From: Candidatus Woesebacteria bacterium
GTDB taxonomy: Bacteria; Patescibacteriota; Microgenomatia; UBA1400; UBA12108
Assembly: GCA_018060845.1 (NCBI GenBank)
Contig: JAGOVG010000008.1
Span: 1 to 34,545 of the forward strand
DNA: 34,545 nucleotides
Direction: 5' to 3'
The notes beneath the pieces were generated by a model. It was not told where the DNA came from. It worked only from the letters and a program-made list of their open reading frames with translations, and did no database searches. Position numbers and translations under genes: made by a program. How positions within the stretch are numbered: the stretch's first letter is position 1; each line of letters begins with the position of its first letter. Of the stretch, positions 9,136-26,758 are shown piece by piece.

Positions 9136-9861
9136 TTAGCCTAGAACTTTTTTTGCCCAGTAGGCATTGGTCCTAAAGAGGGATTCGAATGTCCCGGCAT
9201 CTGACCAAAAGCCGTCGAGGGTAGCCCACTTTAGCTTGCCCTCTTTGATGTAGGCATTGTTGAGATCGGTTACCTCTAGCTCGCCTCTGCCGCTCGGCTT
9301 AAGTGATCGGATCTTGTCAAAGACTGTGTTGTCGTAGAGGTAGAGGCCAGTGACTGCGAGATTGCAGGGTGCTACCTCGGGTTTTTCGAGGATCTCTTCG
9401 ATCACACTAGGATCGCTCTCGCTAAAGCGAGGGATACCAAACCTATTGGGATCGGTGACTTCTTTTAAGAACACCATTGCACCCTCACTAAAACCAGTGA
9501 CTGCACTACTAATATCGGCGTCGGTTGTGTTGTCACCTAGGATCACGGCCACGCTCTCGCCGTCGGCAAAATCCTCGGCATACTTTAGGGCGTCACTAAT
9601 GCCGCCACTGCCACCCTCTTGATAGGCGTATTCGACGTGAGAGAGACCTAGGTCGCGACCATTCTTGATGACATTGATAAAGTCGCCGGCGTGCACGTCG
9701 CCTGTGACTATTAAGACTTCGGTGATGCCCGCGTTCATCAAGGTCTGGATGGGGTAATACACCATGGGGCGATCATAGACGGGGAGCAAATGTTTGTTGG
9801 TAGCGTGAGTTAAGGGATATAACCTAGTACCTTTGCCACCAGCGAGGATAACACCTTTCAT
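9136..9861 (-). CDS. rmlA: glucose-1-phosphate thymidylyltransferase (RmlA-like)
   Basis: Catalyses dTTP plus glucose-1-phosphate to dTDP-glucose, the entry step to the dTDP-sugar pathway whose next gene (rmlB) is 4.5 kb further on. The nucleotide-binding G-G-K-G-T-R-L-Y-P-L-T is at residues 8-18, followed by K-H-L-L-P-V-Y-D-R-P-M, E-G-G-S-G-G-I near residue 82 and V-I-L-G-D-N near 107. At 241 aa it lacks the C-terminal extension of classical RmlA (about 290 aa), which carries part of the allosteric site, so feedback control by dTDP-rhamnose may differ. AAGGAG lies just upstream of the ATG. It is separated from the other rml genes by rarA and others, though all point the same way. Confidence 0.9.
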   Translation of the reverse strand: MKGVILAGGKGTRLYPLTHATNKHLLPVYDRPMVYYPIQTLMNAGITEVLIVTGDVHAGDFINVIKNGRDLGLSHVEYAYQEGGSGGISDALKYAEDFADGESVAVILGDNTTDADISSAVTGFSEGAMVFLKEVTDPNRFGIPRFSESDPSVIEEILEKPEVAPCNLAVTGLYLYDNTVFDKIRSLKPSGRGELEVTDLNNAYIKEGKLKWATLDGFWSDAGTFESLFRTNAYWAKKVLG

Positions 9862-10142: not shown

Positions 10143-11093
10143 TTACAAAATAGAGCCTGCGTTAAGAATAGTGGTCGCGAGTAATATCACGTTGATAAAG
10201 ACAATGTGCGCCCAGTTTTTGCCAACTCGTCGGGAGATGACCTTAGACTCAGCGAGGATTAGGTCGATCACTAAGACGAGGATAAAGAGCAGTGTGGTCG
10301 CCAGACTCATGATCTTTTTGAGGGTAAACTCATTTAGTTTGGGCTGCACCTGTACCTCGGCAACTACTGCCTCGACACTCTCAGGCGTAGCTGACTGCAC
10401 CTCGGGCTCGGCCTCGTCAGTTATCGTAGTTGCTGGGACGATGGTCGGAGCGGGAGTCGTAGCAGGCGCTACTTCTTTGACAGCTACGGTACTACTACTC
10501 GTATCTGCTGCTGCAACAGTCCCATTAGCTGGCGCACCAAAGAGCTGGACGACCAGCATGGTATCTTTACCCTGCAGTGTTCCTGGGACTACGGCGATCC
10601 CGATCTCTTTGTATTTGGCGTTAACGATATTGTCGCGGTGAGTGGGCGAGGCCATCCAGGCTGAGAGCATACGATCGGTACTACCAAAATCTTTGGCCAG
10701 GTTTTCGCCGGCATAGAGGTAGCCATAGCCGGCCGATTTAAACCAAACCCAGGGAGTCTTGCCACTAGGCGAGTTGTGGGCCCAGTAATCTTCTTCGATC
10801 ATGTTGGCGGCTTTCCTACGTGCGGCATCGGCTAGCTTTTCGGAGTAGACGAGCGTGGGCAAGCCGGCCCGGGTGCGCTCACTATTGGTGGCACTCACCA
10901 CCTCGTTAATGGTGATACTGCTAGTAAAACCAAGGATGTGGTAGGGTGTGGCATCAAGCAGGCGGAGAAAGAGGTTACCGGTTAAGAGTACACCAATAAA
11001 GAAAAAGATCCCAGAATTATGCAGGAGCTTGGCCCGAAAGTTGTTGGTGTGATGTGGGGTAAAATAATGCCTAATTTTGGCGCTAAATGACAT
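10143..11093 (-). CDS. CAP/SCP-domain protein anchored at both ends
   Basis: A 316-aa envelope protein. An N-terminal membrane helix (about 27-47) is followed by a CAP (SCP/PR1, cysteine-rich secretory protein-like) domain from about 60 to 185: V-S-A-T-N-S-E-R opens it, A-H-N-S-P-S-G-K (His about 105) and G-E-N-L-A-K follow, and the closing S-P-T-H-R-D-N-I carries a conserved His. The Ca/Zn-site histidines of the fold are therefore present. An Ala/Thr/Pro-rich linker (about 190-250) leads to two further hydrophobic helices (about 258-285 and 290-315). The CAP domain probably lies outside the cell. CAP proteins act in lipid binding or proteolysis in other organisms; the role here is open. Confidence 0.85.
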   Translation of the reverse strand: MSFSAKIRHYFTPHHTNNFRAKLLHNSGIFFFIGVLLTGNLFLRLLDATPYHILGFTSSITINEVVSATNSERTRAGLPTLVYSEKLADAARRKAANMIEEDYWAHNSPSGKTPWVWFKSAGYGYLYAGENLAKDFGSTDRMLSAWMASPTHRDNIVNAKYKEIGIAVVPGTLQGKDTMLVVQLFGAPANGTVAAADTSSSTVAVKEVAPATTPAPTIVPATTITDEAEPEVQSATPESVEAVVAEVQVQPKLNEFTLKKIMSLATTLLFILVLVIDLILAESKVISRRVGKNWAHIVFINVILLATTILNAGSIL

Positions 11094-11559: not shown

Positions 11560-12150
11560 TTAGTTGAGATGAGCAACGACCACGTAGCGATCCCGGTCTA
11601 GCAGACCAATGCAGGTATAGAGGGTTAGGCGGGAGTCGGCGGTATTACGAGTGAGTGAGGTATCATCAGGGGCGATGGTCGCAGTATAGGTGACGGTATA
11701 CGCAATCATCTCAGACTCACTGAGGCTGACAGTAATCAAATCTCCTGGTTTTAGGTCTGGCAGGCGCTTGAGCATGTTTGGCCAATTGTGACCATAGATC
11801 ACGGTATTACCTGAGCTACCAAAACCTGCAGAGTTACTAGCATACGATAACCCCTTGGTAGTAGTCTCCCATTTGCCACCCACAACAGTTGATGGATATA
11901 TAGGCAGAGTGATGCCGAGCTGCTCAATACGCATAAAGGGATAGATGGGGGTTGCGACTGGAGACTCAACCTCCAGTGACTGATCCATGATACTAGGGGG
12001 TACCACGCTATACTCGATCGGGATCACGCGGTAGCGGAGATAGAGCCTGTTTAAGATGAGTGCGGCAGTAAGTGCAGCTGCCACGACCCAAATACTAGGA
12101 TACTTGGATTTTTTACTCTTTGACCTCTTGGGAGATTTAGTTCTTTTCAT
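11560..12150 (-). CDS. sortase (cysteine transpeptidase)
   Basis: A 196-aa membrane-anchored transpeptidase that would cleave a sorting signal between Thr and Gly and attach the protein to the cell surface. A basic N-terminal tail and one helix (about 18-36) anchor it with the catalytic domain outside. The His is in V-I-Y-G-H-N-W (His121), the Cys in T-L-Y-T-C (Cys180) and the Arg in D-R-D-R-Y (Arg186 or 188), giving the full sortase triad. The TLYTC form with short C-terminus fits class D/E-like enzymes better than class A. It overlaps by 14 bp the end of the gene for its probable substrate, so enzyme and substrate are made from one message. Confidence 0.93.
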   Translation of the reverse strand: MKRTKSPKRSKSKKSKYPSIWVVAAALTAALILNRLYLRYRVIPIEYSVVPPSIMDQSLEVESPVATPIYPFMRIEQLGITLPIYPSTVVGGKWETTTKGLSYASNSAGFGSSGNTVIYGHNWPNMLKRLPDLKPGDLITVSLSESEMIAYTVTYTATIAPDDTSLTRNTADSRLTLYTCIGLLDRDRYVVVAHLN

Positions 12151-12745
12151 GGCGAGACTGACGCAGGCCAGTAAAGATAAAGATGAGTGCGAGAACGGTT
12201 AGAGCGAGTAAAACTAGGGAGTCACCAGTTGCGGCTAAGCCTAGAACATCGCCTTCGCTCGGGCTACTATTACTGCTAGAGCTATTTGAGCTAGAGTTGC
12301 TACTCGAACTTGAACTACTGGAGCTAGAACTAGGTGTGGGAGTGTTCCTACAGCTATAGCTAACATTTTTGGCAACAAAGGGATCTGCGACTAGTCCCCA
12401 GAGAGAGCCATCGGGGACATAGAACCAACCCTCTTTTTTTAGGACTTCGACCTGCTCTTCACTCAGTGAGCTAGCGTTCCACCAGTTGGTCTGGATGCCT
12501 GTACCATCAACACTACAAAAACACTGTAGGAGTGTGGACTCATCGAGGTCATAGACCGCGTCTGTTCCTACATATTCACTAGTGGAGCCGACGATGCCAT
12601 GAGTACCATTAGGATAAAAGACTCGGAGGGTACCTTGAGGAGACAAACATGAGGGGAAGTTGGGGGTATCGACAGCGTAAGCTGGGATATAAGAATTGGC
12701 TATGAGACCTAATGAAATAATGAGTGACGATAGTATTTTACGCAT
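12137..12745 (-). CDS. LPXTG-type surface protein with Ser/Asn-rich stalk, probable sortase substrate
   Basis: A 202-aa secreted protein. The signal peptide (1-24) would be cut after A-Y-A. A domain of about 110 residues with four cysteines (near 33, 75, 77 and 132) follows; two copies of a Trp-containing stretch (T-N-W-W near 87, G-S-L-W-G near 113) are visible, but I do not recognise the fold. Residues 139-162 are a stalk of Ser and Asn. The C-terminus is a complete cell-wall sorting signal: L-A-A-T-G at 170-174, a hydrophobic helix 176-193 and the positive tail RQSRHEKN. It is followed immediately by the sortase gene and preceded by a strong promoter and an AAGGA SD eight bases before the ATG. 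Confidence 0.88.
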   Translation of the reverse strand: MRKILSSLIISLGLIANSYIPAYAVDTPNFPSCLSPQGTLRVFYPNGTHGIVGSTSEYVGTDAVYDLDESTLLQCFCSVDGTGIQTNWWNASSLSEEQVEVLKKEGWFYVPDGSLWGLVADPFVAKNVSYSCRNTPTPSSSSSSSSSSSNSSSNSSSSNSSPSEGDVLGLAATGDSLVLLALTVLALIFIFTGLRQSRHEKN

Positions 12746-12788: not shown

Positions 12789-12816
12789 ATTATAGCGTTT
12801 TACTGGGGAATTTCAA
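12789..12816 (-). promoter_or_regulatory. sigma70-like promoter of the surface protein-sortase operon
   Basis: On the minus strand TTGAAA (12811-12816) is followed after 16 bases by TATAAT (12789-12794), close to consensus. It overlaps the last codons of the glycosidase-like gene, so the surface protein and sortase genes can be expressed apart from the glycan operon. The leader that follows has a 6-bp hairpin (GTCGCA/TGCGAC, near 12761-12775) just ahead of the SD. Confidence 0.7.
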
Positions 12817-13807
12817 GCCTAGAGTAATATTCGGTGATAACTGGGACTGCGGGAGTAGCTACTCCCCGAGAATTCCAGATCTCGGTAGAGCCACCAACAT
12901 TAACCCAATAGTTTAGACCGATAACGTTTTTATCAGCTTTAAAGACCTCTAAGGCATCATTGATCCAGGCTGCTTGCTCATCCCCGCTGATCTTGCCATG
13001 AATGTCGGGGATCGGGGCGCCCCACTCGCCTAGGTAGATTTTGCCTCCTGAGCTCTCGGCGATCTCGATCAGGTCACGACGTAGCTTGTCATGCGACCGC
13101 ACGTAGTGATCGATCGCGACCACGCCACCAAGCGCCGCTGTTGTCGGCTTGTCCATCACTAGCTTGGCTACGTCAAAGTTCATAGAGTAGTAGCCGACCT
13201 CGACATTTTTGCCGATAGAGCGGAATGCGTCGCGAGACGCATTGTATTCGTCGATCAAAAATTGGCGATACCCCTCTACCCCACCAACCATGCGTGGGTC
13301 CCCCTCCCCGCCGTTTTCGCATTCTGGACACGGGGTAAAGATATCACCTGATGCAAAGAGACTGCCGTTATTTTTGATAAACTCTAGTATCACTTGTTTA
13401 TGCTCATCTCTACTTATCCGCTTATACCCGAACCACCGCTCCCAACCACTAGCGTTACCTCGGAACCAGACCTTGAGGTTATGCTCCCTAGCAGCATCCA
13501 CCCAGCGAGTGAGGAATGGGACAAACTCTGGGTCATAGGGAGTCGCGATCGCCACATGGCTAGCACCAGTGCCTGCAATATCTGCGACCTGGCGCTCTAT
13601 CGCCTCGTCAAAACTACTATCATCCTCTTTCTCACGTGCGATATCGCGGCTATATTTCATGGTGTCGATACTCCGCACCGACCAGTACGGGACGGGAGAT
13701 GGACGGGGGGAGATGATACTCTCTGGTGGCTGGCGCAGGGATGGCAGGCGGATGGCTACTATGTATAGTAGGACGATACCTACTGTGATCAAAACTTTAG
13801 AGGACAT
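12800..13807 (-). CDS. membrane-anchored glycoside hydrolase-like TIM-barrel protein
   Basis: A 335-aa protein with an N-terminal anchor helix (about 4-20), a Pro-rich linker and a barrel-like domain. Strand-end motifs fit a clan GH-A type glycosidase: H-V-A-I-A-T-P near 84, L-K-V-W-F-R-G-N near 111, C-P-E-C-E-N near 160 as possible acid/base (Glu162 or Glu164), V-G-Y-Y-S-M-N near 204, and K-I-Y-L-G-E-W-G-A-P with Glu261 as the likely nucleophile. The closing L-N-Y-W-V-N-V-G-G is also typical. I cannot assign a GH family. It follows the GT-C-like gene by 13 bp, at the end of the glycan operon, so trimming or remodelling of the surface glycan is a reasonable inference. Confidence 0.7.
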   Translation of the reverse strand: MSSKVLITVGIVLLYIVAIRLPSLRQPPESIISPRPSPVPYWSVRSIDTMKYSRDIAREKEDDSSFDEAIERQVADIAGTGASHVAIATPYDPEFVPFLTRWVDAAREHNLKVWFRGNASGWERWFGYKRISRDEHKQVILEFIKNNGSLFASGDIFTPCPECENGGEGDPRMVGGVEGYRQFLIDEYNASRDAFRSIGKNVEVGYYSMNFDVAKLVMDKPTTAALGGVVAIDHYVRSHDKLRRDLIEIAESSGGKIYLGEWGAPIPDIHGKISGDEQAAWINDALEVFKADKNVIGLNYWVNVGGSTEIWNSRGVATPAVPVITEYYSRLEIPQ

Positions 13808-13820: not shown

Positions 13821-15458
13821 CTATTTATTGTCTTTGATCACTGCCTCGGTCTGGAGACGATCCATAAACTCAGGTTTTAGCTCGTAGATGTCGGCAAAGG
13901 GATAGGCTGCCACACGGGTATAGTTGGCAAAGCCTGGAGTGCGCGAGACTGCGCGCCAGGTTAGATCGGCGTCGTCGTAGGTGCGCATAATAATCCATCT
14001 GGCCCAGTGGTCGGGAGTCGTTGTCGCACTCTCCCAATATTTGCCTGTGCCCTCATGGATAAAGCGCTTCATGGGGAGTTTGCTACTAAAGATAATGGCA
14101 TCATGGCTAGCTGCGGAGATTAGGATAAATCCTTTTTCTTTCTTTGCGTTCGTTTCTAAATAGCCCGAGACTTCGCTCACGTTCTTTTGGCTACTACCTA
14201 CTCTCGCATCATCAATTGCTACTGAGTCAGCACTGATAAAACCTATTAATGTGACTAGTAATAACATTGGGATAATAACTAACCTCCAAGATTTGTACCT
14301 ATCCACTAAGTAACCGATCATAATTGCAATTGTAGGTGATAACATAACACCATACCGTATGTTAAACCAAGTATCACCAGATATTCCTTGAACGTAAATA
14401 ACAGAAAATCCAAGGTAAAGCGCCATTATGTTAAAGATCAACGGAGCCCAAAGCGATGTAAAAGCAACCTTTGTTCTGTTGTCTATCTTTTTGTCTACAG
14501 ACAAAAAGTATGCTCCTATTAGCGATAAAACAAATGGTACCGTGTAGCTGCTATATAGTAAGGAATACATGTAGACTTTAATTGACAAAAAGAGGTTCCA
14601 TTTTGTCGGTAGTACTCCAGCAGATTCCATTACGAGCTGCTGCGCGTGGGCGGAGAATTCGCCCAACATAAAGTAGAGGGGGTCCTTAAAGATTAAGAGA
14701 TTCCACATAAACCAACCAAATACTCCAGTTACTGCTAAAGTCGAAAATAGGATAGTTATACCCTCTACATGGGATAGCCTCTCTCTCCATGAACCCATAT
14801 GCTTACTACTACTGAATGCTTGATTCATTACTAGCAATCCTGCAACTCCCAGCAAAAACCAACCATCATACCTTACTAAGGTCGCCATCATGATCCAAAA
14901 AGCTGCCTTAATTAGTGAAAGAGTGTCACTTTGCTGATGCCAATTTATAAGATAGTAGCAACCAGCTGTCATTGTGAATAACAGGAGTGGTTCGGTCATT
15001 GCGGTTGATTGGAGATAGAGAATATTAATATTCGCGGCAAATACAACTACACCAATTAATTTTCCTAAAAGTCCTATATTAATTCTACCTAGTATTTTAA
15101 ATATCAAAACACCAGTGCCAATAAATGAGAGCATGTTCCAAACTGCACCAGCGAAGCCAGAATGCCACATCCAGTCGTTCCAGATGAGAGGTACCATAAG
15201 GATATGGTTTAGTGGCAGCCAGACAGACCCTAGCTGAGCTAAGCCAGGTTTTAATCCTTCAACAACCCGCCGTCCAATATCCAAGTGTGACCTAGCATCG
15301 TTATACGAAAGAGCTAAGCCATTGTTTAAGTAGTATATGTAAGATAACACTGATGTTATAGTCATTAAAATAATGACTAGAGTTAGTGCGTGATGAGTCA
15401 ACAATTTCTTTATTTGTAAAATAAATATTGAAAACTTATAAATAGGTATTTTTATCAT
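13821..15458 (-). CDS. polytopic GT-C-like glycosyltransferase (PMT/ArnT type)
   Basis: A 545-aa protein with about ten membrane helices that probably transfers a sugar from a polyprenyl-phosphate donor on the outer face of the membrane. The first outer loop carries Y-N-D-A-R-S-H-L-D-I-G-R-R near residues 52-64, the acidic site typical of GT-C enzymes (mannosyltransferases, ArnT). M-T-E-P-L-L-L-F and L-V-R-Y-D-G-W follow, also typical. The C-terminal 110 residues form a soluble outer domain. It overlaps the dehydrogenase gene by 4 bp. Base composition changes near 14200 (residue about 420): the N-terminal part is AT-rich, the C-terminal part matches the GC-richer flank, so the gene looks like a recombinant. 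Confidence 0.8.
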   Translation of the reverse strand: MIKIPIYKFSIFILQIKKLLTHHALTLVIILMTITSVLSYIYYLNNGLALSYNDARSHLDIGRRVVEGLKPGLAQLGSVWLPLNHILMVPLIWNDWMWHSGFAGAVWNMLSFIGTGVLIFKILGRINIGLLGKLIGVVVFAANINILYLQSTAMTEPLLLFTMTAGCYYLINWHQQSDTLSLIKAAFWIMMATLVRYDGWFLLGVAGLLVMNQAFSSSKHMGSWRERLSHVEGITILFSTLAVTGVFGWFMWNLLIFKDPLYFMLGEFSAHAQQLVMESAGVLPTKWNLFLSIKVYMYSLLYSSYTVPFVLSLIGAYFLSVDKKIDNRTKVAFTSLWAPLIFNIMALYLGFSVIYVQGISGDTWFNIRYGVMLSPTIAIMIGYLVDRYKSWRLVIIPMLLLVTLIGFISADSVAIDDARVGSSQKNVSEVSGYLETNAKKEKGFILISAASHDAIIFSSKLPMKRFIHEGTGKYWESATTTPDHWARWIIMRTYDDADLTWRAVSRTPGFANYTRVAAYPFADIYELKPEFMDRLQTEAVIKDNK

Positions 15459-16372
15459 ATAAATTTTGATGGGTTAGAATTAAATAAGTTGTTAACCGCG
15501 TCTACTGCCATCCTTTGGTGTGCCTGCTTTGTAAAGCCTGCAATATGAGGCGAGAGAAGTGTGTTTGGCAAAGACTGTAGATTTTTGTCGATGTTCGGTT
15601 CATTACAAAACACATCAAGCGCGACACTATCGATCTTTCCGTCTTTAACGCATTGGATTAACTCTCCTTCGTCGATTAGCTCGCCACGAGAAACGTTGAT
15701 GAGAGTAGCTCCATTTTTAATCAAAGATAAGCGAGTCTTATTAAACATCCCTCTAGTCTCTTTGGTTAATGGAGACTGTATGCTGATAATATCAGATCTC
15801 TGTAGCAAATCATCTAATCCAACTAGATTAACACCTAATGTCGTAGCCAAATCGGGACTGACGTATGGATCATAAGCTAGGAGCTCTACTTCAAATGGTA
15901 TAAGGCGCTTTGCAACTTCACGGCCTACCGCACCAAGACCTACCATGCCAAATGTTTTTCCTGACAACTCCTCTCCAATTAAATTAAATGATCGCCATTC
16001 ACCATTTTGAAGATTTTGTGACTGTTGATTAATCTTGTGAAGATTAAAAATTGTGCAACCTACTACGTACTCTGCAACGCTCTTCGCGTTAGAGCCTGGA
16101 GAGTTATAGATTTGAATACCCCTATTCTTGGCTAATGTAAGATCTATGTTATCAAGACCGACGCCTGCTTTTAGTATAAACTTTAGATTAGGAAGATCAT
16201 CGATAATGACTGCATCGATCTTGGTATATGTCCTAACGAATATACCTACTACTTTATTTTTGATATCCTCTGACAGAGTGTTAATTATAGTAACGTAACC
16301 ATTATCTCGAAGCATTGTTAGAGCTGAAGGGTCGATTTCTTTGTGATCAATAACCCATACTATATTATTCAT
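15455..16372 (-). CDS. D-2-hydroxyacid dehydrogenase (SerA-like)
   Basis: A 305-aa NAD-dependent dehydrogenase that interconverts a 2-hydroxyacid and a 2-ketoacid. It has the Rossmann motif G-L-G-A-V-G at 145-150, the adenosine-binding Asp168, and the catalytic set Arg229 (S-R-G-E-L), Glu258 (N-E-P) and His276 (S-P-H-I-A-G). It lacks the regulatory ACT domain of 3-phosphoglycerate dehydrogenase. It overlaps the upstream membrane gene by 8 bp and the downstream gene by 4 bp, so it is a genuine member of the glycan operon. It might make a hydroxyacid used as a glycan substituent, or be a passenger; substrate choice cannot be read from the sequence. Confidence 0.9.
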   Translation of the reverse strand: MNNIVWVIDHKEIDPSALTMLRDNGYVTIINTLSEDIKNKVVGIFVRTYTKIDAVIIDDLPNLKFILKAGVGLDNIDLTLAKNRGIQIYNSPGSNAKSVAEYVVGCTIFNLHKINQQSQNLQNGEWRSFNLIGEELSGKTFGMVGLGAVGREVAKRLIPFEVELLAYDPYVSPDLATTLGVNLVGLDDLLQRSDIISIQSPLTKETRGMFNKTRLSLIKNGATLINVSRGELIDEGELIQCVKDGKIDSVALDVFCNEPNIDKNLQSLPNTLLSPHIAGFTKQAHQRMAVDAVNNLFNSNPSKFI

Positions 16373-17876
16373 TTTGATCCTTTTTATAGAGAATGAGGGG
16401 AAGAAGTATTGTAATAACGATACCGACAGAAAGTAGGTAATGTAGCTGTTCTAGATTGAGGTACGGTGAGAGCCACAAATTGTAAGGCAGTGAACTAGAT
16501 TTGTTTACTTTAATCAGGTTCAGGTTGTATTGATAGTCATCAGGAATCCGATCCACTAAGGACTCAGTATATACATCAGGTGGCACTACTGTTGTGGTAA
16601 GGGCGCCAGCAACTGATACATATACGCTCGGAATGAGGAGCAATAAAGTTATAGCTAAAGGAATTATTTTTGATTTAATATTTGATAAATATAGACTCAC
16701 GAATACTGACAAAAAAGCAGTAGTTGGCAACAAATAACGTGGTCCAAATGACCAACCACCCCATGGATCATTAAACGTAGCATAAATAATCAAATTTAGT
16801 GCAATTGTTGAGATGGTGATAGCATGCAAAGGAGTGTTTAGCTTGGATGCCCAGATGTAAATTATGCCAAGAAGACCAACGATTAATACCGGGAAGTAAT
16901 AGAAGATGCCGCGCGTGTCGCTAAATATAAGCGTGTAATATCCACGAATTTGCCGCTCAGTATCAAATTGCTTAAATTTCTCTTTAGTTGCAGATGTGGT
17001 AGTTGGAGTAATGTGAAGCTGTGTGTTTACACTATCAGGAGGGTATATGGCACGTCCCAACCTTTGTCCAAGCTTAAATGGTGAACCGGCCGCAGTGTTA
17101 TTATATAAACCAAAAATTAATAACGGAATTAATAGCCCTACTACAAAGAGCGTAATATTTGGGTTTATGTGCAGTTGGATTGGATTCTTATAGCGATCAT
17201 AAATGACTCTAAAGAACTTAATACAATAATAGACAAGTTGAGGCATGAATAGAAGCGAGTTAGGTATATCTACCATTATCCCTAAGCCGTATAGAATACC
17301 GAAAATAACAGCCCGCAAAAAAGTTATCTCCTTGTAGATGAGTAAAGTCAGAGAGACACCAATTGCAACACTAATACTATGCTGCGTAAGTGTACCTGAG
17401 TATGCATGTGCGTTTGTAGCAAACGCATAAAGTAGACCAGCAAACATCGCGTATGACTGTTTGGCACCCATGGCTTTTGCCAATCTTGCTATCAAATAGA
17501 TGTTGATTACTGATGTTACTGATATGAAACCAAAAGTGAATAATTGCGGATAACCTATAATTTTACCAAGAGCATACGACGGCAATGCTAGTAATGCTAC
17601 ACCAGGTGTAAAGATGGAGATATAACGATTATTTACTTTTGATAAGTCAGGCGAAGCTAGGGCAGCCAGTTCAGAATTAAGAAATATTGTTCTGTCTTCG
17701 AAAAGTGATCTTACTAAGGCATAACGAGAAGAACTATGTGAACTCTCAAAAGCAGATGTTTCGTAGTTATCTAGAAAACTGCTATTTTGGTATACGCTAT
17801 TCTTGTCACCTTTAACTGCGAATAAGGTGAAAATCAAGCCTAGTAAAAAGATAGCTAAAAATTTTGTTATTCTCAT
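16365..17876 (-). CDS. polytopic membrane protein, probable GT-C-like glycosyltransferase
   Basis: A 503-aa protein with about eleven membrane helices. The N-terminal loop between helices 1 and 2 is long (about 22-85) and contains S-S-R-Y-A-L-V-R-S-L and N-R-Y-I-S-I-F-T-P-G, a layout seen in PMT/ArnT-like and related bacterial GT-C proteins, but without the sharp acidic motif of the neighbouring gene. D-P-W-G-G-W-S-F-G-P-R-Y-L-L-P near residue 377 is a strongly conserved-looking outer loop typical of this group. It overlaps the GT4 gene by 4 bp. Function as a sugar transferase is inferred from topology and neighbours; a polymerase (Wzy-like) role is the main alternative. Confidence 0.65.
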   Translation of the reverse strand: MRITKFLAIFLLGLIFTLFAVKGDKNSVYQNSSFLDNYETSAFESSHSSSRYALVRSLFEDRTIFLNSELAALASPDLSKVNNRYISIFTPGVALLALPSYALGKIIGYPQLFTFGFISVTSVINIYLIARLAKAMGAKQSYAMFAGLLYAFATNAHAYSGTLTQHSISVAIGVSLTLLIYKEITFLRAVIFGILYGLGIMVDIPNSLLFMPQLVYYCIKFFRVIYDRYKNPIQLHINPNITLFVVGLLIPLLIFGLYNNTAAGSPFKLGQRLGRAIYPPDSVNTQLHITPTTTSATKEKFKQFDTERQIRGYYTLIFSDTRGIFYYFPVLIVGLLGIIYIWASKLNTPLHAITISTIALNLIIYATFNDPWGGWSFGPRYLLPTTAFLSVFVSLYLSNIKSKIIPLAITLLLLIPSVYVSVAGALTTTVVPPDVYTESLVDRIPDDYQYNLNLIKVNKSSSLPYNLWLSPYLNLEQLHYLLSVGIVITILLPLILYKKDQNE

Positions 17877-19114
17877 ATTTTGTAAGCCTCGCTAGATTTG
17901 TAGAGTAGCTTAATTAACTTACTTATCTGTTTTGTAAAATTATATTTAGATCTAGATAGAGAATAATTGCTACTAGAGTAGTTATTATACAAATCTGAAT
18001 TGGTTAATAAAAGGTAGATTGCCTCAGCCATTCTAATTGCATTTTTTTCTGGAACTACCGAGCCGCCGAAGTTGTCACTAGCTAGTTCTATAGAAGTTGC
18101 ATTAGAGGCAATCACCATCGGTAGAGACGAAGCCATCGCTTCTAAGTACATCGCTGGCATAGACTCAGATATTGACCCTGAGACGAATAAATCACTCTCT
18201 TTGTAATATGTGCCTATAATGTGTTTTGGAACATATCCTATGAATTTTACATATTCATTTAAACTATACTTTTTAACTAACTTTTCTAAGTTATTTAATT
18301 CCGGCCCATCGCCAATAATATTAAGCTCAGCCTGTCTATAATTGAGTATATTAACGAGGTGATTAAAGGCAGCGATTACGGTTACAAAATCTTTACGTCG
18401 CACTAAATAGCCAACTGAAATAACTCTATACTTATTACGTTTCAAAAGTTTTCTTGGCTTACTAAGAAATGACGTAGTGTCTGAACCTATGGTTAGTCGT
18501 GTGAGTTTTTTTAACTGCAAACTAGAAAGGAGGTCTAGAGAGGCATGGTCTTTCGCAACTACTAGACTTGCTCTTTGGAGCGTTTGGTTAGAAAGATTCT
18601 GACTTAGCGACTTGAATTTATAAAATACTGAATCGATTATCCTTGTTAATTTGAGGAAGAAATCGGTGGAATAGCTTTTCCTGCCCATAGACCTGCCTTC
18701 GTCAGCTGCTAAAAAGGTATGTGGTGCTACGATCGGACCTATCACTGTTGCCACTTTTCTGGCACTAGAAAGAAGCAATATATTAAATGTTTCCCCGATT
18801 GCAAAAGGACCATTATGCCAGAGAAGATCGTAGTGATTCTTAGATAAAAGTAATAGCCCTTTAACATAAACCCAGAAGATGAACCGAAGTCTAAGAAGTA
18901 TAGAGATATATTGTGGCTTACTCCCTAACATGGCGTGTATATTTAGGTTTCCAATTTTATTTTCTTGCATGTATGCCACTAAGACGTCTCCAGAAACATT
19001 TTTATACTCACTGAGTGCTGTCAGATAGTCATAGGCACGTGTATACTCACTCCCATCTTGAGGATTCGGACAATAGTGTAATGGCGCGATTAAGATAGAT
19101 AGCTTATGATTCAT
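17873..19114 (-). CDS. GT4-family glycosyltransferase
   Basis: A 413-aa retaining glycosyltransferase of the GT-B fold. The C-terminal donor domain shows V-I-S-V-G-Y-L-V-R-R-K-D-F at about 231-243, E-L-N-I-I-G-D-G-P-E at 263-272 and the E-x7-E element S-E-S-M-P-A-M-Y-L-E (Glu317 and Glu325). The N-terminal domain is less conserved and has a hydrophobic stretch (about 70-90) that may dip into the membrane. It overlaps the fusion gene by 11 bp and the next gene by 4 bp. It would add a sugar from a nucleotide donor to a lipid-linked glycan in the cytoplasm. Acceptor and donor are unknown. Confidence 0.9.
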   Translation of the reverse strand: MNHKLSILIAPLHYCPNPQDGSEYTRAYDYLTALSEYKNVSGDVLVAYMQENKIGNLNIHAMLGSKPQYISILLRLRFIFWVYVKGLLLLSKNHYDLLWHNGPFAIGETFNILLLSSARKVATVIGPIVAPHTFLAADEGRSMGRKSYSTDFFLKLTRIIDSVFYKFKSLSQNLSNQTLQRASLVVAKDHASLDLLSSLQLKKLTRLTIGSDTTSFLSKPRKLLKRNKYRVISVGYLVRRKDFVTVIAAFNHLVNILNYRQAELNIIGDGPELNNLEKLVKKYSLNEYVKFIGYVPKHIIGTYYKESDLFVSGSISESMPAMYLEAMASSLPMVIASNATSIELASDNFGGSVVPEKNAIRMAEAIYLLLTNSDLYNNYSSSNYSLSRSKYNFTKQISKLIKLLYKSSEAYKI

Positions 19115-22100
19115 AGTATTTTCTACCTATATTTAGATATCCGTCACGGTTAACACTAGGAATACTGTATTTAGTTAATAATATGTATGGAATCAACTTC
19201 TTTTCCTTTGAATTCAGTATTAGTTTTTTGTTAGTCGAGATGGACTCTAACAATTTACATAGTGTCAGATCATAACTCTTTAGTGTATATACACCATGTT
19301 CGAGATCTAGGAGATAATAACTGTCACCTCGTTTAATAATGTTTTCTGGCTTTAGATCACGATGGGCGAAGACAAGTTCCTTAGAGTCAAATTGTATCAG
19401 TGAATAGAGTGATGAAACAAATACTCTTGTTAAGAAGGGGGCCTGACGAAGAGAGTTAGTGATAATCCCAACTATATATAGCCAGAGTGATCCGAGAATT
19501 AAATCGTAATTGCTTAGTCGCTTTACTTTGGATCTTTGCTTTTTGGTTAGGGTGCTGTAGTTTAGTTGATTTAAGGATGGTAGTACGAAGTCGTAGATTT
19601 CTTTATATGTAATAGCTTCATCTTTGTTATTGTCAATATACTGATTCACTATTGAGAGAGTATTTTTTGATTCCAGAATGTCTACTACTGCAGGAGTACA
19701 GAGTTTTTTACTAGTCTTTGACAAGGCGAGAGCACGAGCTAAGTTTATTGAGTTTTCTGCTTCCCGAATTAAATTATAGTAGTGATAATCTTTTTGTTTG
19801 TAAATGTATGACTTGATAATGAATTTATCATGTCCCTTAGAATATAGTCCCACATGATATTTGGTACTTTTGTTAGAGCTACTGAGTTTTCTTATTTCTT
19901 TATACTCAGGCACATTGATGTGATTCATTGCTTTAAAATTTTTATTTGTAGAGCTAAAACTGTCCCAAAGCTGCAATAAAAGATGCTTACCAACTGGTTC
20001 TGTTATCATTTTGGTAGATAGCAAACCAATTAAGAGTGAAGTGCTTTTTTCCCAGTCAAACTGGCTAGCCCATTTGATTGCTTTATTCGAAAGTTGTGAT
20101 CGCAAACTATTGTTTTGGATAAGTTTGATAACCATTTCTGATAACTCAGTAGTATTGCCATACTCAAATAAGTATCCACTTTCTCCATCCTTTACAGCAT
20201 CGCGGAGGCCAGGAACGTTGCTGGCTACAATCGGAGTACCACAAGCATTTGCTTCGATTGTGGTAATTCCCCATCCTTCGATTAAGCTAGGATTTACGAA
20301 AACCCAAGATTCTTGATATAGTTTTAATTTCTCTTTTTCACTAACTTTACCGACAAACTTAATACAATGATCGAGCTTACGTTTAACTACTAACTTTTCT
20401 AGGCTGTTTCTTGCAGGGCCATCACCAGCGATTATGCATCTGACTTTGGGAATATCTGACACTACCCTTTTCATAGACTCGATTAAGAGAAATATGCTTT
20501 TGGCGGTTGTAAGACGCCCGAGATAGAGTACGGTCGGGTTGAGAGATTTTTTACCAGGTTTAAATGTATTTAGATCTACTCCATTGTAAACAATCTGTGG
20601 GTTCTGACTAGTCAAATTATGAGAGTTTATTGCTTCTTTACTACTCGGACTAACAGTCATTACCTCGGTTTTTCTATAAACTAAGGGCATAATCCTTTTC
20701 TCTAAGAACTGTGCTATATAGGAAAATGGTGGGATTAAGCTAGTCCTAAATACATCCTGATGAACGTGATGTATTAGTAACACTACTTTCTCTTTTACAT
20801 ATAAAGGAGTGAAAAATGGCAAACCATTCTCACTATCAATAATCACGTCGTATCTACCCCTAAATCGGAAGTAGTAGTATAAGAAGGCCCAAACATATAC
20901 TAGGTAAAATCCTCCACGCCGAATCACTCTAACTCCGTCAATCTTCTCATGTCTTATGCTTTTGCCATCATTACCCGAGAATATTGTCACTTGATGTCCG
21001 CTCTTGACCATCCGTTTACTCAACTCGTGAATATATACTTCTGCACCACCTGCCCACTTATGCCGGAGGTCTCGCCAGTTAAAGATAAGTACGCGGAGAT
21101 ATCCTTGAGGGAGTGGAGGTAAAGGAGGTAGAGGCTTAAATAACCCAAAAAAGTCTACTGTTGCATCCAGGATACTTTTGACTAAGTCGTAGTAGTAATT
21201 AGAAATTAGAATAACAATAAAACATGCGAGCGAACTACCGAATGAAACTATTACTAGTGATTCTATTGAGGAGTGAAGTAGTGACATTATAAATGCTTGT
21301 GCAAGACTAAAAATGAATCCAAGAACTGGGAAAATATATCTTTTTTGAACTTGTTGATAGGTGATAATAGTTGAGCTAATAGAGAACAGAGCTACACCTA
21401 TGGTATAGAGTGGCAGATACTGAACAATTTCTTTTGTTTGTGATCCCCATAGTAACGGAGCAGTAACTGAACCAAAGAAGCCAAAAATAGCTACAGCGAA
21501 AAGATTGGCAGATGTAACTAGTAGCATGATGCGAGAGAAGTTTCTCTTTGGATTGATACCTGATCCGAGATCTTTACTTGTATATGGAATTACAAACTGA
21601 CTAAATGTATTACCCATGAAATATACCATCTTGCCAGAAAGAGAGAGGTAACTATAAAGCCCTGCTTCGATCGGACTAAGAAAATGTTTAGCGATAATAA
21701 TATCTAGACTTAGATAAGCTACTTTTGAGAGCGTACTAAGGAGTGATGTTATATAAAATTTCTTGGAAATGAGTTCTACCTGACTATCATCTACTATAAG
21801 TGAGTTTTTGTGATCTTGGCGACGACTTTGATTCCATTCAATTCCTAGCATTAGGAGCATCGCTATTGGAGTTGAAAGGTAGATAAGATCGGCTAGATCT
21901 AGCCCTACAAATAGACTAGTGAGGAGTAGTTTTGAGATCGATTCAATGACCGTGGTTAGCGCAGGAATAGTAAATAGTAGTATTCCGGTTAAATACCCAC
22001 CAGTAATAGCGCTTAATGTACTTATTATCCATAGTGGACTAAAGATAATTAGTAGATTAGGAGTCTCTAGCTTGAAGAAATTCTGTAAAATAGGGATACT

Positions 22101-24578
22101 CAAAATCCAAAATAGAGAAACAATCCCTACAGGCAGAATAATTTTTCGAGTTATTCGAGTCAGATGACCATTTATAGGCTTACCATACTTTCCAACTACG
22201 AAAGCTGTGCTGTGACTGACTGCCTTACCAAGAGGATTAGTAAGAATCGAGGCTATATACAATAAGCTCGAGAATAAACTCAGATCTCCAAATGAAGTGA
22301 TATCTAGCCTACGCGACAAATACGCGTTATAGAGGAAGTTCATAAAATTGCCGAATACATTAGCAAGCACCATAACACCACCGGCATTCCAGACCGAGTT
22401 AATACGATCTACCAACTTCTGCAGAGAGCGAGAACGAACATTAGTAGTACGATTAATCAATACAGACTTTTTGGTTTTGGTCAGACCGTGCAGCGTCTTT
22501 TCCCAGTAGTGTGGTTTGGTAATTAGCTGGACTAGGGCGACGGCTGCGGCGTAGCTGATCGCGAGCCAGTAGAGAGGGATTAGGAGCACATACTTAATGA
22601 GCTCCCAGTGTCCACGTTTGGCGCAGCCAATCATGTAGTTGTAGAGCGCGATAAAGTTGCCCAGGAGGAGCGAGGTCACTGCCATATAAAAAACAACCGC
22701 GGGGTAGATACTCTCGATAAAGGCGCCGACCTGAGCGTAGAGGACAAAGTAACTGATAGTCATGATCCACAAATATGGGTTGATCAAAATAAAGGCGATC
22801 TTGCCACCGACGATTAGGTTAAAGAGGAGTGCGTGGACCCCCTGCTTTTTGAATAGTGCGACAGGATGGCGCATGTGGACGAGATAAGTCTGCATGTACC
22901 CTTTGAGCCAGCGGGACCGCTGCCTAATCCAGTTACGAAAATTATTATTAGCTTCTTCTAGGGTCGTACTATCTATAATGGCGGTCTGATAGCCGGCGTT
23001 AAATAGGCGGGTACCAAGGTCCGCATCTTCGGTCACATTAAAAGCGTCCCAGCCATGAAGATCGCGTAGGAGCTGAGTCTTAAAGTGGTTGCTGGTACCA
23101 CCAAGTGGAATCGTGGTCTTAATAGACTGGAGCCCTGGTAGGATGACGTCAAACCAAAGACTGTACTCGGCAGTAAAGAAGCGAGTCAGGAGATTGTCGC
23201 GACTATTAAAGTAATTCAATTTGGCTTGGACACAACCGATTTTGTCATGACTCTGAGACAGAGCTAGGTAGGCTTTTTTGAGCTGAAGTGGCTCGGGCTT
23301 GTCCTCGGCATCGTAGATAACTACATACTCACCTTTAACAAAAGCTAGACCATAGTTGCAGGCCTTTGGTTTGGTCTTGGGGTAGCTGTGCGGGACTATG
23401 ATCGTTCGATAGTGCGCGGGGAGGTCTAGCTCTTTGGCCATTTTGATAGACTCTTTGTCATCTTCTTCGAGTAAGAGCAAAATATCTAGTTTGGTTTTGG
23501 GATAATCGAGGCCATCCATAGAGTGGATAAACTCAGGGAGCACATTGGCTTCTTTGTAGAGCGGGACGAGGATCGAGTAGATCGGAAGATCTTTGTCTTT
23601 GATGCTCGCTAGCTCATCACTAGTTGCGATAATCTCAGGAGGAAAGTGCAGACTCTTGAGTGTGACATAGAGATTAAAGAGTACGTCTATCAAATAGATC
23701 AAGCTTAAGGTGGCAGTGAGAACGATCAAGGTACTAATAGGCTCGACCACAAATCCCCAGCCGATCGCTATCACTAGCGCGGAGATGAGCGTGACCTGCC
23801 ATGGGGCAAAGGTCTTGAGGGCTGAGATGTGATGAGGGAGCGTGGAGTGGGTGACAAAATGATTCTTTTTAAAAGTTACGCCGGCACCGAGCATCTGCTC
23901 GACCGGTAACTTGACATAGACGGGGTTAGAAAAGATGTAGCGAAGAGTCGAGTTGTTTTGGGAGAGCGTCTTTTTGATTTTGGCGAGGAATGGCTTGGGA
24001 CGGCTAACGTGAGGAGTGTCCCTTTTGACTTTGTAGACAGGGAGTCCAAGGTTTTTGGCAGTGTAGCTTAGCTCGGCCTCGATATTCCATTCGTTGAGGG
24101 TGTTGGGATTGAGGTGTGCAAAGACGTGGCGAGGAAAGATCTTAGGACCGCGGTGGAGACGATTCTTAAAGAGCTGTTTCCAAGAGAATGGAGTATAGGT
24201 GAGCCCGTAGCCAGTCCCGATGTTCCTATACTGGGTGAGTAGCTGTGGCATGCAGTCTGCCAGGTCAGCGTCGAGGATAGCGATGTGCTGTCCACGTGCG
24301 ACAGAGTAGCCAGCGAGAATACTGTCGCTCTTACCCAGTCTCGCAGAATTGCGTAGTCGAATAATCTTTATAGGACTAAGACTCGGCATTATATAACTGT
24401 CGGTACCATCGCTACTGCCATCGTCGACTATGATGACCTCTGTTTTTGAGGGTAGTTCGTTGAGGCGATCCTTGAGGTAGATAGCTAGTTTTTGGAGGTT
24501 ATTTTTCTCGTTGTGCGCAGGAATAATCAGGGAGAGGGCGAGCTTGATTTGGTCGTTATTTTTGCTTGTCTTTGCCAT
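19104..24578 (-). CDS. five-module fusion: GT2 - GT2 - Wzx-like flippase - GT4 - kinase-like
   Basis: One open frame of 1824 codons. Modules in order: (1) DPM1/GtrB-like GT2, about 12-230, V-D-D-G-S at 51-55 and D-A-D at 103-105; (2) membrane helices 258-310 and a processive-type GT2, about 332-690, with the Asp motifs Y-D-A-E-D at 422-426 and T-E-D-A-D at 516-520, R-Q-R-S-R-W at 552-557 and later helices; (3) a flippase-like run of about 12 helices, 723-1140; (4) after a proline linker near 1149-1158, a GT4, 1160-1512, G-G-A-E at 1177-1180 and the Glu motif at 1434-1449; (5) a kinase-like domain, about 1540-1824, H-R-D-L-K-P-E-N at 1739-1746 and D-L-E at 1758-1760. Together it could build, flip and modify a lipid-linked glycan. 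Base composition shifts near residue 700. Confidence 0.88.
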   Translation of the reverse strand: MAKTSKNNDQIKLALSLIIPAHNEKNNLQKLAIYLKDRLNELPSKTEVIIVDDGSSDGTDSYIMPSLSPIKIIRLRNSARLGKSDSILAGYSVARGQHIAILDADLADCMPQLLTQYRNIGTGYGLTYTPFSWKQLFKNRLHRGPKIFPRHVFAHLNPNTLNEWNIEAELSYTAKNLGLPVYKVKRDTPHVSRPKPFLAKIKKTLSQNNSTLRYIFSNPVYVKLPVEQMLGAGVTFKKNHFVTHSTLPHHISALKTFAPWQVTLISALVIAIGWGFVVEPISTLIVLTATLSLIYLIDVLFNLYVTLKSLHFPPEIIATSDELASIKDKDLPIYSILVPLYKEANVLPEFIHSMDGLDYPKTKLDILLLLEEDDKESIKMAKELDLPAHYRTIIVPHSYPKTKPKACNYGLAFVKGEYVVIYDAEDKPEPLQLKKAYLALSQSHDKIGCVQAKLNYFNSRDNLLTRFFTAEYSLWFDVILPGLQSIKTTIPLGGTSNHFKTQLLRDLHGWDAFNVTEDADLGTRLFNAGYQTAIIDSTTLEEANNNFRNWIRQRSRWLKGYMQTYLVHMRHPVALFKKQGVHALLFNLIVGGKIAFILINPYLWIMTISYFVLYAQVGAFIESIYPAVVFYMAVTSLLLGNFIALYNYMIGCAKRGHWELIKYVLLIPLYWLAISYAAAVALVQLITKPHYWEKTLHGLTKTKKSVLINRTTNVRSRSLQKLVDRINSVWNAGGVMVLANVFGNFMNFLYNAYLSRRLDITSFGDLSLFSSLLYIASILTNPLGKAVSHSTAFVVGKYGKPINGHLTRITRKIILPVGIVSLFWILSIPILQNFFKLETPNLLIIFSPLWIISTLSAITGGYLTGILLFTIPALTTVIESISKLLLTSLFVGLDLADLIYLSTPIAMLLMLGIEWNQSRRQDHKNSLIVDDSQVELISKKFYITSLLSTLSKVAYLSLDIIIAKHFLSPIEAGLYSYLSLSGKMVYFMGNTFSQFVIPYTSKDLGSGINPKRNFSRIMLLVTSANLFAVAIFGFFGSVTAPLLWGSQTKEIVQYLPLYTIGVALFSISSTIITYQQVQKRYIFPVLGFIFSLAQAFIMSLLHSSIESLVIVSFGSSLACFIVILISNYYYDLVKSILDATVDFFGLFKPLPPLPPLPQGYLRVLIFNWRDLRHKWAGGAEVYIHELSKRMVKSGHQVTIFSGNDGKSIRHEKIDGVRVIRRGGFYLVYVWAFLYYYFRFRGRYDVIIDSENGLPFFTPLYVKEKVVLLIHHVHQDVFRTSLIPPFSYIAQFLEKRIMPLVYRKTEVMTVSPSSKEAINSHNLTSQNPQIVYNGVDLNTFKPGKKSLNPTVLYLGRLTTAKSIFLLIESMKRVVSDIPKVRCIIAGDGPARNSLEKLVVKRKLDHCIKFVGKVSEKEKLKLYQESWVFVNPSLIEGWGITTIEANACGTPIVASNVPGLRDAVKDGESGYLFEYGNTTELSEMVIKLIQNNSLRSQLSNKAIKWASQFDWEKSTSLLIGLLSTKMITEPVGKHLLLQLWDSFSSTNKNFKAMNHINVPEYKEIRKLSSSNKSTKYHVGLYSKGHDKFIIKSYIYKQKDYHYYNLIREAENSINLARALALSKTSKKLCTPAVVDILESKNTLSIVNQYIDNNKDEAITYKEIYDFVLPSLNQLNYSTLTKKQRSKVKRLSNYDLILGSLWLYIVGIITNSLRQAPFLTRVFVSSLYSLIQFDSKELVFAHRDLKPENIIKRGDSYYLLDLEHGVYTLKSYDLTLCKLLESISTNKKLILNSKEKKLIPYILLTKYSIPSVNRDGYLNIGRKYYES

Positions 24579-24589
24579 ATATACACAAA

Positions 24590-24605
24590 GCCTGCAAGCG
24601 CAGGC
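24590..24605 (-). promoter_or_regulatory. leader hairpin of the glycan operon
   Basis: GCCTGC/GCAGGC pairs with a 4-base loop in the untranslated leader between the promoter and the ATG at 24578. It is followed by only three T residues, so it is a poor terminator; it may stabilise the message or modulate translation, since no SD is seen before the start codon. Confidence 0.35.
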
Positions 24606-24632
24606 AAGTCTTCTAGATCAAACTAATACTAA

Positions 24633-24641
24633 ATTATATCA
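24633..24641 (-). promoter_or_regulatory. extended -10 promoter of the glycan operon
   Basis: On the minus strand TGATATAAT is a perfect extended -10 (TGN-TATAAT). No good -35 hexamer lies 16-18 bases upstream, as is usual for extended -10 promoters. It lies downstream of the 5S terminator and about 55 bases before the ATG of the giant fusion gene, so the glycan operon has its own start. Confidence 0.55.
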
Positions 24642-24666
24642 TAGAAGTAAAGTATATAGGACATAC

Positions 24667-24697
24667 AAAAAATCCCGTACCTATGAGGATACGGGAT
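24667..24697 (-). terminator. intrinsic terminator of the 23S-5S transcript
   Basis: On the minus strand an 8-bp stem (ATCCCGTA at 24690-24697 pairing with TACGGGAT at 24672-24679) with a 10-base loop is followed by six T residues. It stands 22 bases after the end of 5S rRNA and before the glycan operon promoter. Confidence 0.88.
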
Positions 24698-24718
24698 AAC
24701 ACAATATTAGCAACACTA

Positions 24719-24842
24719 ATGTCCCGGCAATGATCTATTTTCGCAGTTAGTTAAATCAACTACTATCGTCAACGCTGAGGTGTTTCACGACTCTGTTCGG
24801 AATGGGAAGAGGTGGGACCACCTCGCTCAAATCACCGAGACA
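24719..24842 (-). rRNA. rrf: 5S ribosomal RNA
   Basis: The conserved core C-C-G-A-A-C-A-G-A-G and the G-A-G-G-T-G-G-T-C-C-C-A-C-C helix are clear on the minus strand. Terminal helix: ATGTC(T)CGG at the 5' end pairs with CCGGGACAT at the 3' end, which sets the ends to within a few bases. It follows 23S by about 95 bases and precedes a strong terminator. Between 23S and 5S a hairpin of the form GGGTG-GAC/GTTCACCC (near 24874-24895) may be a processing site. Confidence 0.93.
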
Positions 24843-24962: not shown

Positions 24963-25012
24963 ATCCAATAAATTGGATCCCATTGACTATCAGAAGATTC
25001 TGATGTCTCTGG
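24963..25012 (-). other. 50-nt two-hairpin insertion near the 23S 3' end
   Basis: In other bacteria the A-G-C-T-G-A-C-C-x-G-T stretch is followed at once by TACTAATA. Here about 50 bases intervene, forming two simple hairpins (TCAGAA/TTCTGA and ATCCAAT/ATTGGAT), and the following bases read TACGCATG instead. It lies in the last exon close to helix 1. It may be an expansion segment or a short element excised or tolerated in mature rRNA. Confidence 0.55.
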
Positions 25013-25274
25013 ACAGGTCAGCTAAACACTTTGCAGTGCGTACACCTCCTGCCGATTACCTGGTGGTCTTCCAGGGATCTACCGTCTATATTTCTATAAA
25101 CAAGGAATTCTCATCTTGGGGCGTGTTTCCCGCTTAGATGCTTTCAGCGGTTATCACTTACCAACGTAGCTACTCTGCGATGCGTCTGACGACTACAACA
25201 GAAACACTAGCGGTTGGCTCACTCCGGTCCTCTCGTACTAAGAGCAACCCCCCTCAAAATTCCAACGCTGATAA

Positions 25275-25317
<43 letters not shown>

Positions 25318-25345
25318 ACGTAGCGCTTTAATGGGCGAACAGACC

Positions 25346-25376
<31 letters not shown>

Positions 25377-25498
25377 CGCTGAGCCGACATCGCTCAATAA
25401 TTATTTAATTGTCTCCAATTAGTTTTGACTATACCATCACCTCTCTAATTAAATAGAGGGTGCCAACGTTTTATAGAGATATTTTATCCCTATCTTCA

Positions 25499-25514
25499 CC
25501 CCGCCAAGGCGGGG
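25499..25514. repeat. short palindromic unit, type A (in intron)
   Basis: CCCCGCC-AA-GGCGGGG, nearly the same core as the palindrome at 31681-31692. It sits downstream of the endonuclease ORF in a peripheral part of the intron. Confidence 0.5.
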
Positions 25515-25531
25515 ATCCAGTCGATACGGGG

Positions 25532-26092
25532 TTATATCAAAATTTTGTATGCCATAGAAGGAATTATGTATGGTCGAATAATATCGACAAACTTTTTGGA
25601 TTCTTTGACGTTAAATCGTAATCGATAATATTGCTTATCTTGATCACGACTGACAGTCAACCCAAAATATCTAAAAAGGAGTCTACCCAGTAAGAGTTGT
25701 TCTTGTTCAGGGAACACCTGCGTATTGAGGTAGCAACTTTTATCACACAAACTTCCGTCGTCCATGTACCACACTGCCATAATGCGAGCATTTAGTTCTA
25801 AATCAAGAGGAATTATCTTCTTTTTATTGATATAAAATTGATGATATATAGAAGTAAAGCAAGGCATGCTAGCGGTAAAAAACCGATAGCCTACTCTCTT
25901 ACCATTACCTTTATATGATTTTGGCGGCGTTAGTACGCAATTATTTAGGACGCTATACTTCCAATCAACGTAGTCTTTTTGATGAATACTATGTGTGATT
26001 TGGAGATGTGCATTGTTTTTGCAACGCATATATCCATCACCAAGCATACATCCTATTACTACATCTGATTGTAATTTTGACAAACTTCCCAC
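25532..26092 (-). CDS. LAGLIDADG homing endonuclease encoded in the 23S intron
   Basis: A 186-aa intron-encoded endonuclease that would cut intronless 23S genes at the insertion site and so spread the intron. Two LAGLIDADG motifs are present: V-V-I-G-C-M-L-G-D-G at residues 11-20 and R-I-M-A-V-W-Y-M-D-D-G at 103-113, each with its metal-binding Asp; the W-Y-M-D-D-G form is typical of the LAGLIDADG_2 (PF03161-like) group. The start is a GTG at 26092; an in-frame TAG lies 18 bases upstream, so no longer protein is possible, and no SD is evident. The frame is open and both motifs are intact, which suggests the enzyme is still functional. Translation must occur from the precursor or the excised intron. 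Confidence 0.93.
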   Translation of the reverse strand: MGSLSKLQSDVVIGCMLGDGYMRCKNNAHLQITHSIHQKDYVDWKYSVLNNCVLTPPKSYKGNGKRVGYRFFTASMPCFTSIYHQFYINKKKIIPLDLELNARIMAVWYMDDGSLCDKSCYLNTQVFPEQEQLLLGRLLFRYFGLTVSRDQDKQYYRLRFNVKESKKFVDIIRPYIIPSMAYKILI

Positions 26093-26650: not shown

Positions 26651-26683
<33 letters not shown>

Positions 26684-26758
26684 TTACCAGTAGGCCGCAT
26701 CTTCACAGCCATTTCAATTTCGCCGAGCCCTCCCTCAAGACAGTTATGAGATTGTTAA

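Follow-up and report, generated by a model that had tools for sequence, protein, structure and literature searches.

RESULTS

Gene content between the 5S rRNA and CAP-domain genes

The window is the entire 34,545-base contig C3 of an assembly of 976,905 bases in 14 contigs (genome G000), and between a 5S rRNA gene and a gene for a CAP-domain protein it holds an island whose features are collected in Table 1. A giant gene starts 144 bases past the 5S rRNA gene on the same strand (24578-24722), with a terminator-like hairpin of 10 pairs at 24672-24697 between the two. Its product joins a GT2 domain recognised by Pfam (residues 16-107), a second GT2 of the processive type (334-559), a MOP flippase (about 722-1140), a GT4 (1177-1503), and a kinase-like module (1540-1824). 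The first GT2 matches ArnC-type and MftF-type models, as polyprenyl-phosphate sugar synthases do, and the second matches PgaC_IcaA (2.4e-26) and CelA (7e-18), like GT2s of the PgaC/cellulose-synthase type, all below the curated cut-offs; unlike the members of either group, these GT2s are fused in tandem. For the flippase module, Pfam gives a weak Polysacc_synt match below its cut-off (E 4.1e-4), and the AlphaFold2 model with Foldseek predicts the fold of MOP flippases such as Wzx, MurJ, and MATE (TM-score by query 0.57-0.74 among the 50 matches listed), from which the module differs in standing mid-fusion between GT2 and GT4. The kinase-like module keeps the catalytic K, HxDxxxxN, and D in 9/9 sequences, as in APH/choline-kinase-like small-molecule kinases, and its best PDB profile match is choline kinase (E 5.9e-6, about 48 positions); unlike those enzymes, it is fused to, or encoded beside, a glycan flippase/GT4 gene. 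The same kind of profile search against the PDB returned no match for the flippase, the hydrolase-like protein, or GTC2.

Downstream of the giant lie a further GT4, GTC1, a dehydrogenase with a counterpart in the same place in genome G005 (40% identity), and GTC2; the label GT-C rests on topology and on the preliminary description of this DNA, GTC2 being without support from any family model. The hydrolase-like protein that follows is a predicted TIM barrel, with Foldseek matches to GH5, GH30, GH26, and GH113, and beyond the CAP gene there are sugar-nucleotide genes. From this gene content, we consider it rather probable that the stretch from the 5S rRNA to the CAP-domain gene is a fixed site in the chromosome that houses a locus for surface-glycan synthesis. 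A scan of genome contigs gave a distant GT4 in a Methanosphaera record as its sole match, which was left out of the analysis. Repeats that might serve a site-specific switch were weak and two-copy, none of them marking such a switch, and repeat-mediated switching was rejected on these grounds.

Table 1. Features of the island and its borders in the 34,545-base window.
Feature	Coordinates	Strand	Remarks
5S rRNA, left border of island	24722..24839	-	
Giant fusion, 1824 aa	19104..24578	-	GT2, GT2, flippase, GT4, kinase-like
Left composition edge	22247..22490	-	Best codon 705 of giant (about 22466), linker between second GT2 and flippase
MOP-superfamily flippase module (predicted)	21159..22415	-	AlphaFold2 pLDDT 85.7; Foldseek to MATE/MurJ/WzxE
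Kinase-like module	19107..19961	-	K50, H200-D202-N207, D219 invariant
GT4 glycosyltransferase of variable centre	17873..19114	-	GC3 0.34
GTC1, multi-membrane GT-C-like protein	16365..17876	-	GC3 0.33; NCBIfam NF047440 E 8.6e-18, below cut-off
D-2-hydroxyacid dehydrogenase	15455..16372	-	GC3 0.34
GTC2, conserved GT-C-like membrane protein	13821..15458	-	Codons 1-423 low GC3, 424-545 high
Right composition edge	14075..14210	-	Best codon 423 of GTC2 (about 14192), start of conserved block
Membrane-anchored glycoside-hydrolase-like protein, conserved right flank	12800..13807	-	AlphaFold2 pLDDT 81
Conserved flank protein, no family	12137..12745	-	
Sortase	11560..12150	-	Pfam Sortase 1.2e-21
CAP-domain protein, right border of island	10143..11093	-	88% identical in same-genus G001
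Sugar nucleotidyltransferase, conserved chromosomal flank	9136..9861	-	90% identical in G001

Elsewhere on the contig, the 23S rRNA gene spans 4.1 kb (24986-29102), with a group I intron at 26843-27081 and a LAGLIDADG_2 ORF at 25532-26092. The 16S and 23S rRNA genes lie 4.6 kb apart (29102-33720), the spacer being 1.7 kb in G001, of the same genus, and 1.3 kb in G004; it contains genes for an ABC transporter, a membrane protein, a HAD hydrolase, and a tRNA-Ile on the opposite strand. A second low-GC island (0.36 in an 8-kb interval) lies on another contig of the genome (G000:C1, about 6-18 kb, L125) and encodes a serine recombinase, a replication-type protein, and an IS-type transposase, as named by eye from the translations. 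This island looks like a mobile element, and we count it in favour of exchange at the glycan locus.

Composition steps inside two genes

GC is 0.373 at 14200-22450 and 0.450 in the sampled genome (17 stretches, 323,099 bases), and a 500-bp profile falls near 22.3-22.5 kb and returns near 14.0-14.2 kb. Coding GC3 is 0.333 in this cassette, 0.591 in codons 1-700 of the giant, and 0.579 in codons 426-545 of GTC2; across 204 genes of G000, it averages 0.452 (sd 0.066), so that the step leads from unusually high to unusually low values and not from average to low. With the amino acid held constant, synonymous GC drops at codon 705 of the giant (support 697-778) and rises at codon 423 of GTC2 (support 417-462), and 0 of 2000 permutations per gene gave a change as large in either case. 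The low-GC stretch described earlier is thus confirmed, and its edges fall where they had been placed, near residue 700 of the giant between the second GT2 and the flippase, and near residue 420 of a GT-C-like gene, which is the second of two such genes (13821-15458).

Both steps are exceptional for this genome and for these genes. Among 74 other ORFs of at least 400 aa from the genome sample, none matched the step sizes of 0.27 (giant) and 0.25 (GTC2), which are the two largest among the 76 long ORFs; by test statistic, the giant was reached by 0/74 and GTC2 by 1/74, a 3070-aa ORF. At a fixed split, the giant of G000 gives 0.274 against a mean of 0.031 (sd 0.034, maximum 0.108) for 26 homologues, and its GTC2 gives -0.227 against a mean of 0.012 (sd 0.054, minimum -0.100; z -4.4) for 24. 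Relatives with the same composition throughout, which the preliminary description had named as a sign of vertical descent, did not appear among these homologues, which show no comparable steps. Both edges adjoin highly conserved blocks of their genes, conservation in GTC2 rising from 0.44-0.47 before the edge to 0.66-0.81 after it. Such a step within an ORF would be hard to derive from expression level or a smooth mutation gradient.

Age of the fusion and shape of the locus in relatives

The giant is matched at E 1e-100 in 60 of the 373 genomes of the class sample, the window's own included, and in the order sample, the GT2-GT2 half is matched in 11/88 genomes and GTC2 in 12/88. GT2, GT2, flippase, and GT4 form one ORF in 40 of the 47 other genomes read gene by gene (22/28 and 18/19), a count that includes ORFs beginning within the first GT2, past it, or at the end of a contig. 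The exceptions are G029, G066, and G208, with two ORFs split at the 700-735 joint; G022, with the GT2 part only; G018, where the gene runs off the contig; and G005 and G193, where it lies on two contigs. An exact 99-base overlap joins the G005 pieces, and the resulting protein of 1616 aa ends in a kinase of its own. For G109, G142, and G248, the match table shows GT2-GT2 and GT4 in a single frame and no flippase match between them. Most relatives that possess the kinase module encode it as a gene of its own, and in G000 and G005 it is fused; the free gene lies in the centre of many loci, and in G302 and G112 it immediately follows the giant. Since the four-module fusion is class-wide, it is older than the composition edges, and the giant fused enzyme is much older than the presumed swap. 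The suggestion that an exchange had perhaps produced the five-module protein is therefore ruled out, for the four-module fusion by its spread and for the kinase fusion by a joint that is wholly within the low-GC part and is common to G005.

The same order of genes is seen across families, running from the giant through variable genes, GTC1, GTC2, hydrolase, and (protein) to the sortase, with conserved outer genes around a variable centre, apart from G077 and G078, in which hydrolase and sortase are found upstream of the giant instead, and G022, which lacks the centre. A three-segment fit to 22 loci gave a low-GC3 centre of at least twice the null maximum in seven (G000, G023, G037, G219, G098, G166, and G195), the null being 20 permutations that ignore codon autocorrelation. 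In the other six, the right edge falls within the first 52 codons of GTC2 in five, and the left edge lies well inside the giant in two (G219 at about 707 and G037 at about 1284, in reference codons). Large steps inside both border genes occur in G000 alone among the 22.

Within family f1, the right flank of CAP, nucleotidyltransferase, MgsA, and RmlB is conserved; RmlB is 95% identical in G001, with the CAP protein and the nucleotidyltransferase at the values in Table 1, and these three genes have a GC3 of 0.58-0.59 in G000. Because these native orthologues carry such values, it is the low-GC centre that looks out of place and the high-GC flanks that look native. In G000 and G005 alike, the rRNA operon forms the left border. 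The site holds a glycan locus in one of five family relatives and other surface-type cargo in three, and in G002, the contig ends before it. G004, contiguous from 5S to CAP, encodes a Big_13/fn3 protein of 1638 aa, a CARDB protein of 779 aa, and a third protein of 255 aa. In G001, the neighbour of CAP is a Big_13/LTD/fn3 protein of 1337 aa. In G003, Big_7/beta-helix/Spherulin4 proteins adjoin CAP and an SdrD_B/SpaA protein of 1553 aa adjoins 5S; the two borders are on different contigs in G001 and G003. CARDB-type proteins lie next to the island at L048:3826-6159 (777 aa, G005) and L179:6817-9156 (779 aa, G004). It is clear from these loci that in family f1, the 5S-CAP site holds alternative surface cargo, either the glycan locus or Ig-like giants.

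Kinship along the locus

Segment-by-segment phylogenies, which had been proposed for the two border genes, gave a divided answer. In the giant, G000 and G005 are sisters throughout, in GT2-GT2 (SH-aLRT 99), flippase (100), and GT4 (88), with 46% identity in the flippase and 63% in the GT4, so the closest relative is the same on both sides of the edge and only the degree changes mildly: the kinship excess of the pair is 0.16 before the left edge and 0.42 after it (8/1000 permutations). In GTC2, codons 25-420 join G000 and G005 (93; with G037, 99), and codons 424-541 place them apart, a discordance seen in a quick tree that failed the AU test (togetherness p 0.33; with G037, 0.088). The CAP tree joins the two at 100, and trees of the hydrolase, protein 12137, and the sortase are weakly resolved. 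GTC1 places them in opposite deep clades, and their grouping is rejected (AU p 0.0012) while the giant's segments keep them together; the discordance of centre and flank makes it likely that the centre was exchanged in the lineage of G000 or of G005.

Kinship also steps inside the giant in other genomes; all 1035 pairs with data were summarised, and those with a close second GT2 were listed one by one. For G077/G078, two members of one genus, normalised distance is 0.29-0.36 in GT2-GT2, 0.97 in the flippase, and 0.85 in the GT4 (B/A2 ratio z 6.2, C/A2 z 5.2 over the 1035 pairs), and identity is 89% over residues 331-700, 37% in the flippase, and 56% in the GT4, the latter two being about those of unrelated pairs. 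The step lies at reference 751-823, just past the joint of second GT2 and flippase (0/1000 permutations). G166/G175 has its best step position at 1096, close to where the flippase joins GT4 (support 259-1117), and differs at GT4 (z 2.5); G147/G403 shows a weak step (4/1000) and G403/G408 a reverse one (0/1000), and G147/G408 and G249/G339 show none. Fast divergence of the flippase is an alternative for these pairs, as G077 and G078 are still sisters in the flippase tree. The comparison with relatives thus agrees with what had been proposed, in that outer genes are conserved around a variable centre in the loci compared and G077/G078 step past the same joint.

DISCUSSION

We favour, with some confidence, the explanation that homologous recombination, crossing over next to conserved coding blocks, replaced the low-GC centre, the donor being most likely a near relative. 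The replaced stretch would run for about 8.3 kb from the flippase part of the giant through GTC2 codon 423, with crossovers at the end of the second GT2 and in the GTC2 block that starts near codon 421; crossovers in or beside such blocks would account for both border genes still being in frame. The replacement would have brought in a flippase, GT4, and kinase of its own along with the extra GT4 and GTC1, leaving the outer GT2-GT2, GTC2 tail, hydrolase, and sortase in place. Exchange is likely, and the intragenic edges were probably left by the swapping of cassettes at a fixed site for surface genes. The earlier account of a homologous replacement, as in serotype switching, thus holds in its sharp edges within two ORFs, its conserved outer genes and variable centre, and the discordance of GTC1. 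The evidence speaks against a foreign donor. By synonymous composition the giant looks chimeric, and its closest relative is the same on both sides of the edge. Any donor would be a close relative, as the giant groups with G005 on both sides of its edge, which leaves a distant donor unsupported, and the flippase-GT4 part, though low in GC, is by its sequence kinship of the same family stock. We propose that the donor was a low-GC relative from the same lineage or one close to it, although none such was found among the family genomes compared, and a single exchange may lie behind both edges.

Low GC does not by itself prove recent transfer, and it is common in capsule centres, where it need not mean one (excerpts of PMC6619384). 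An old mosaic, in which the G000-G005 lineage inherited the locus vertically and GC3 of the flippase-to-GTC2 stretch was lowered in G000 only, through module-specific AT drift or lost codon selection, is unlikely but has several observations in its favour, namely the sisterhood with G005 on both sides of the edge, a FYMINK/GARP ratio that is only mildly raised in the flippase (z 1.6, rank 4/46) and stands at z 0.2 in the GT4, and the recurrence of low centres in 7 of 22 loci. Drift would not be expected, however, to stop sharply inside two ORFs, a comparable step occurs in 0/26 homologues, and the discordance of GTC1 also speaks against it. Replacement of the flanks, with the high-GC GT2-GT2 and GTC2-tail/hydrolase parts coming from a GC-richer relative, appears more doubtful still. 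It would explain why flank GC3, at 0.58-0.59, exceeds the genome mean, and the weaker G005 kinship of the high-GC half, which fits a donor of the same family, would even allow the flank as newcomer; against this, the right flank continues into vertically inherited genes (88-95% in G001) with equally high GC3, and GT2-GT2 still groups with G005 at 99. A chimeric assembly joining the loci of two relatives through conserved blocks is very improbable, for, despite 14 contigs, 2.05% contamination, and edges beside conserved blocks, where misjoining would occur, the two joints 8.3 kb apart are in frame and correctly registered, the assembly has no second copy of the giant or GTC2, and composition steps inside the giant also occur in G037 and G219.

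If the centre was replaced, the glycan has probably changed with it. Judging from the protein families, the GT2 modules would make or extend a lipid-linked glycan, the fused flippase would turn it over, the GT4 and kinase may modify it on the inner side, and its completion on the outer side may fall to the GT-C enzymes, hydrolase, and sortase. The locus resembles Streptococcus pneumoniae cps, Neisseria cps, and Enterobacteriales SP loci in its fixed site and conserved outer genes, and it shares with these capsule/O-antigen loci a variable low-GC glycosyltransferase centre and intragenic mosaic borders (excerpts of PMC6619384 and PMC7305143), such as the one inside meningococcal ctrE (excerpts of PMC6619384). 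Unlike in those loci, the borders here fall within a fusion of several glycosyltransferase and flippase modules, no gene of the locus was recognised as encoding Wzy, a chain-length regulator, or an export ABC protein, and the exchange is read across species, with one genome per species, and not across strains. Our literature search found no report of the fusion or of such exchange in these bacteria.

A broader reading, which we put forward tentatively and hold somewhat less probable than not, is that in this small-genome class, the stretch from the rRNA operon to CAP is a switch site for surface identity and the giant is its own recombination platform. Cargo would be exchanged there as entire types, with a glycan factory and giant surface proteins of the Ig/SdrD type replacing one another, and the conserved GT2 and GT-C blocks would anchor in-frame swaps of flippase, GT4, and kinase modules together with neighbouring genes. 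If exchange at this locus is true, the dynamics of capsule switching would extend to tiny-genome, probably host-attached bacteria, on which the literature searched holds little, and would involve a multi-module enzyme whose parts are exchanged in frame. The 5S-to-CAP stretch offers a concrete place to seek surface variation between strains.
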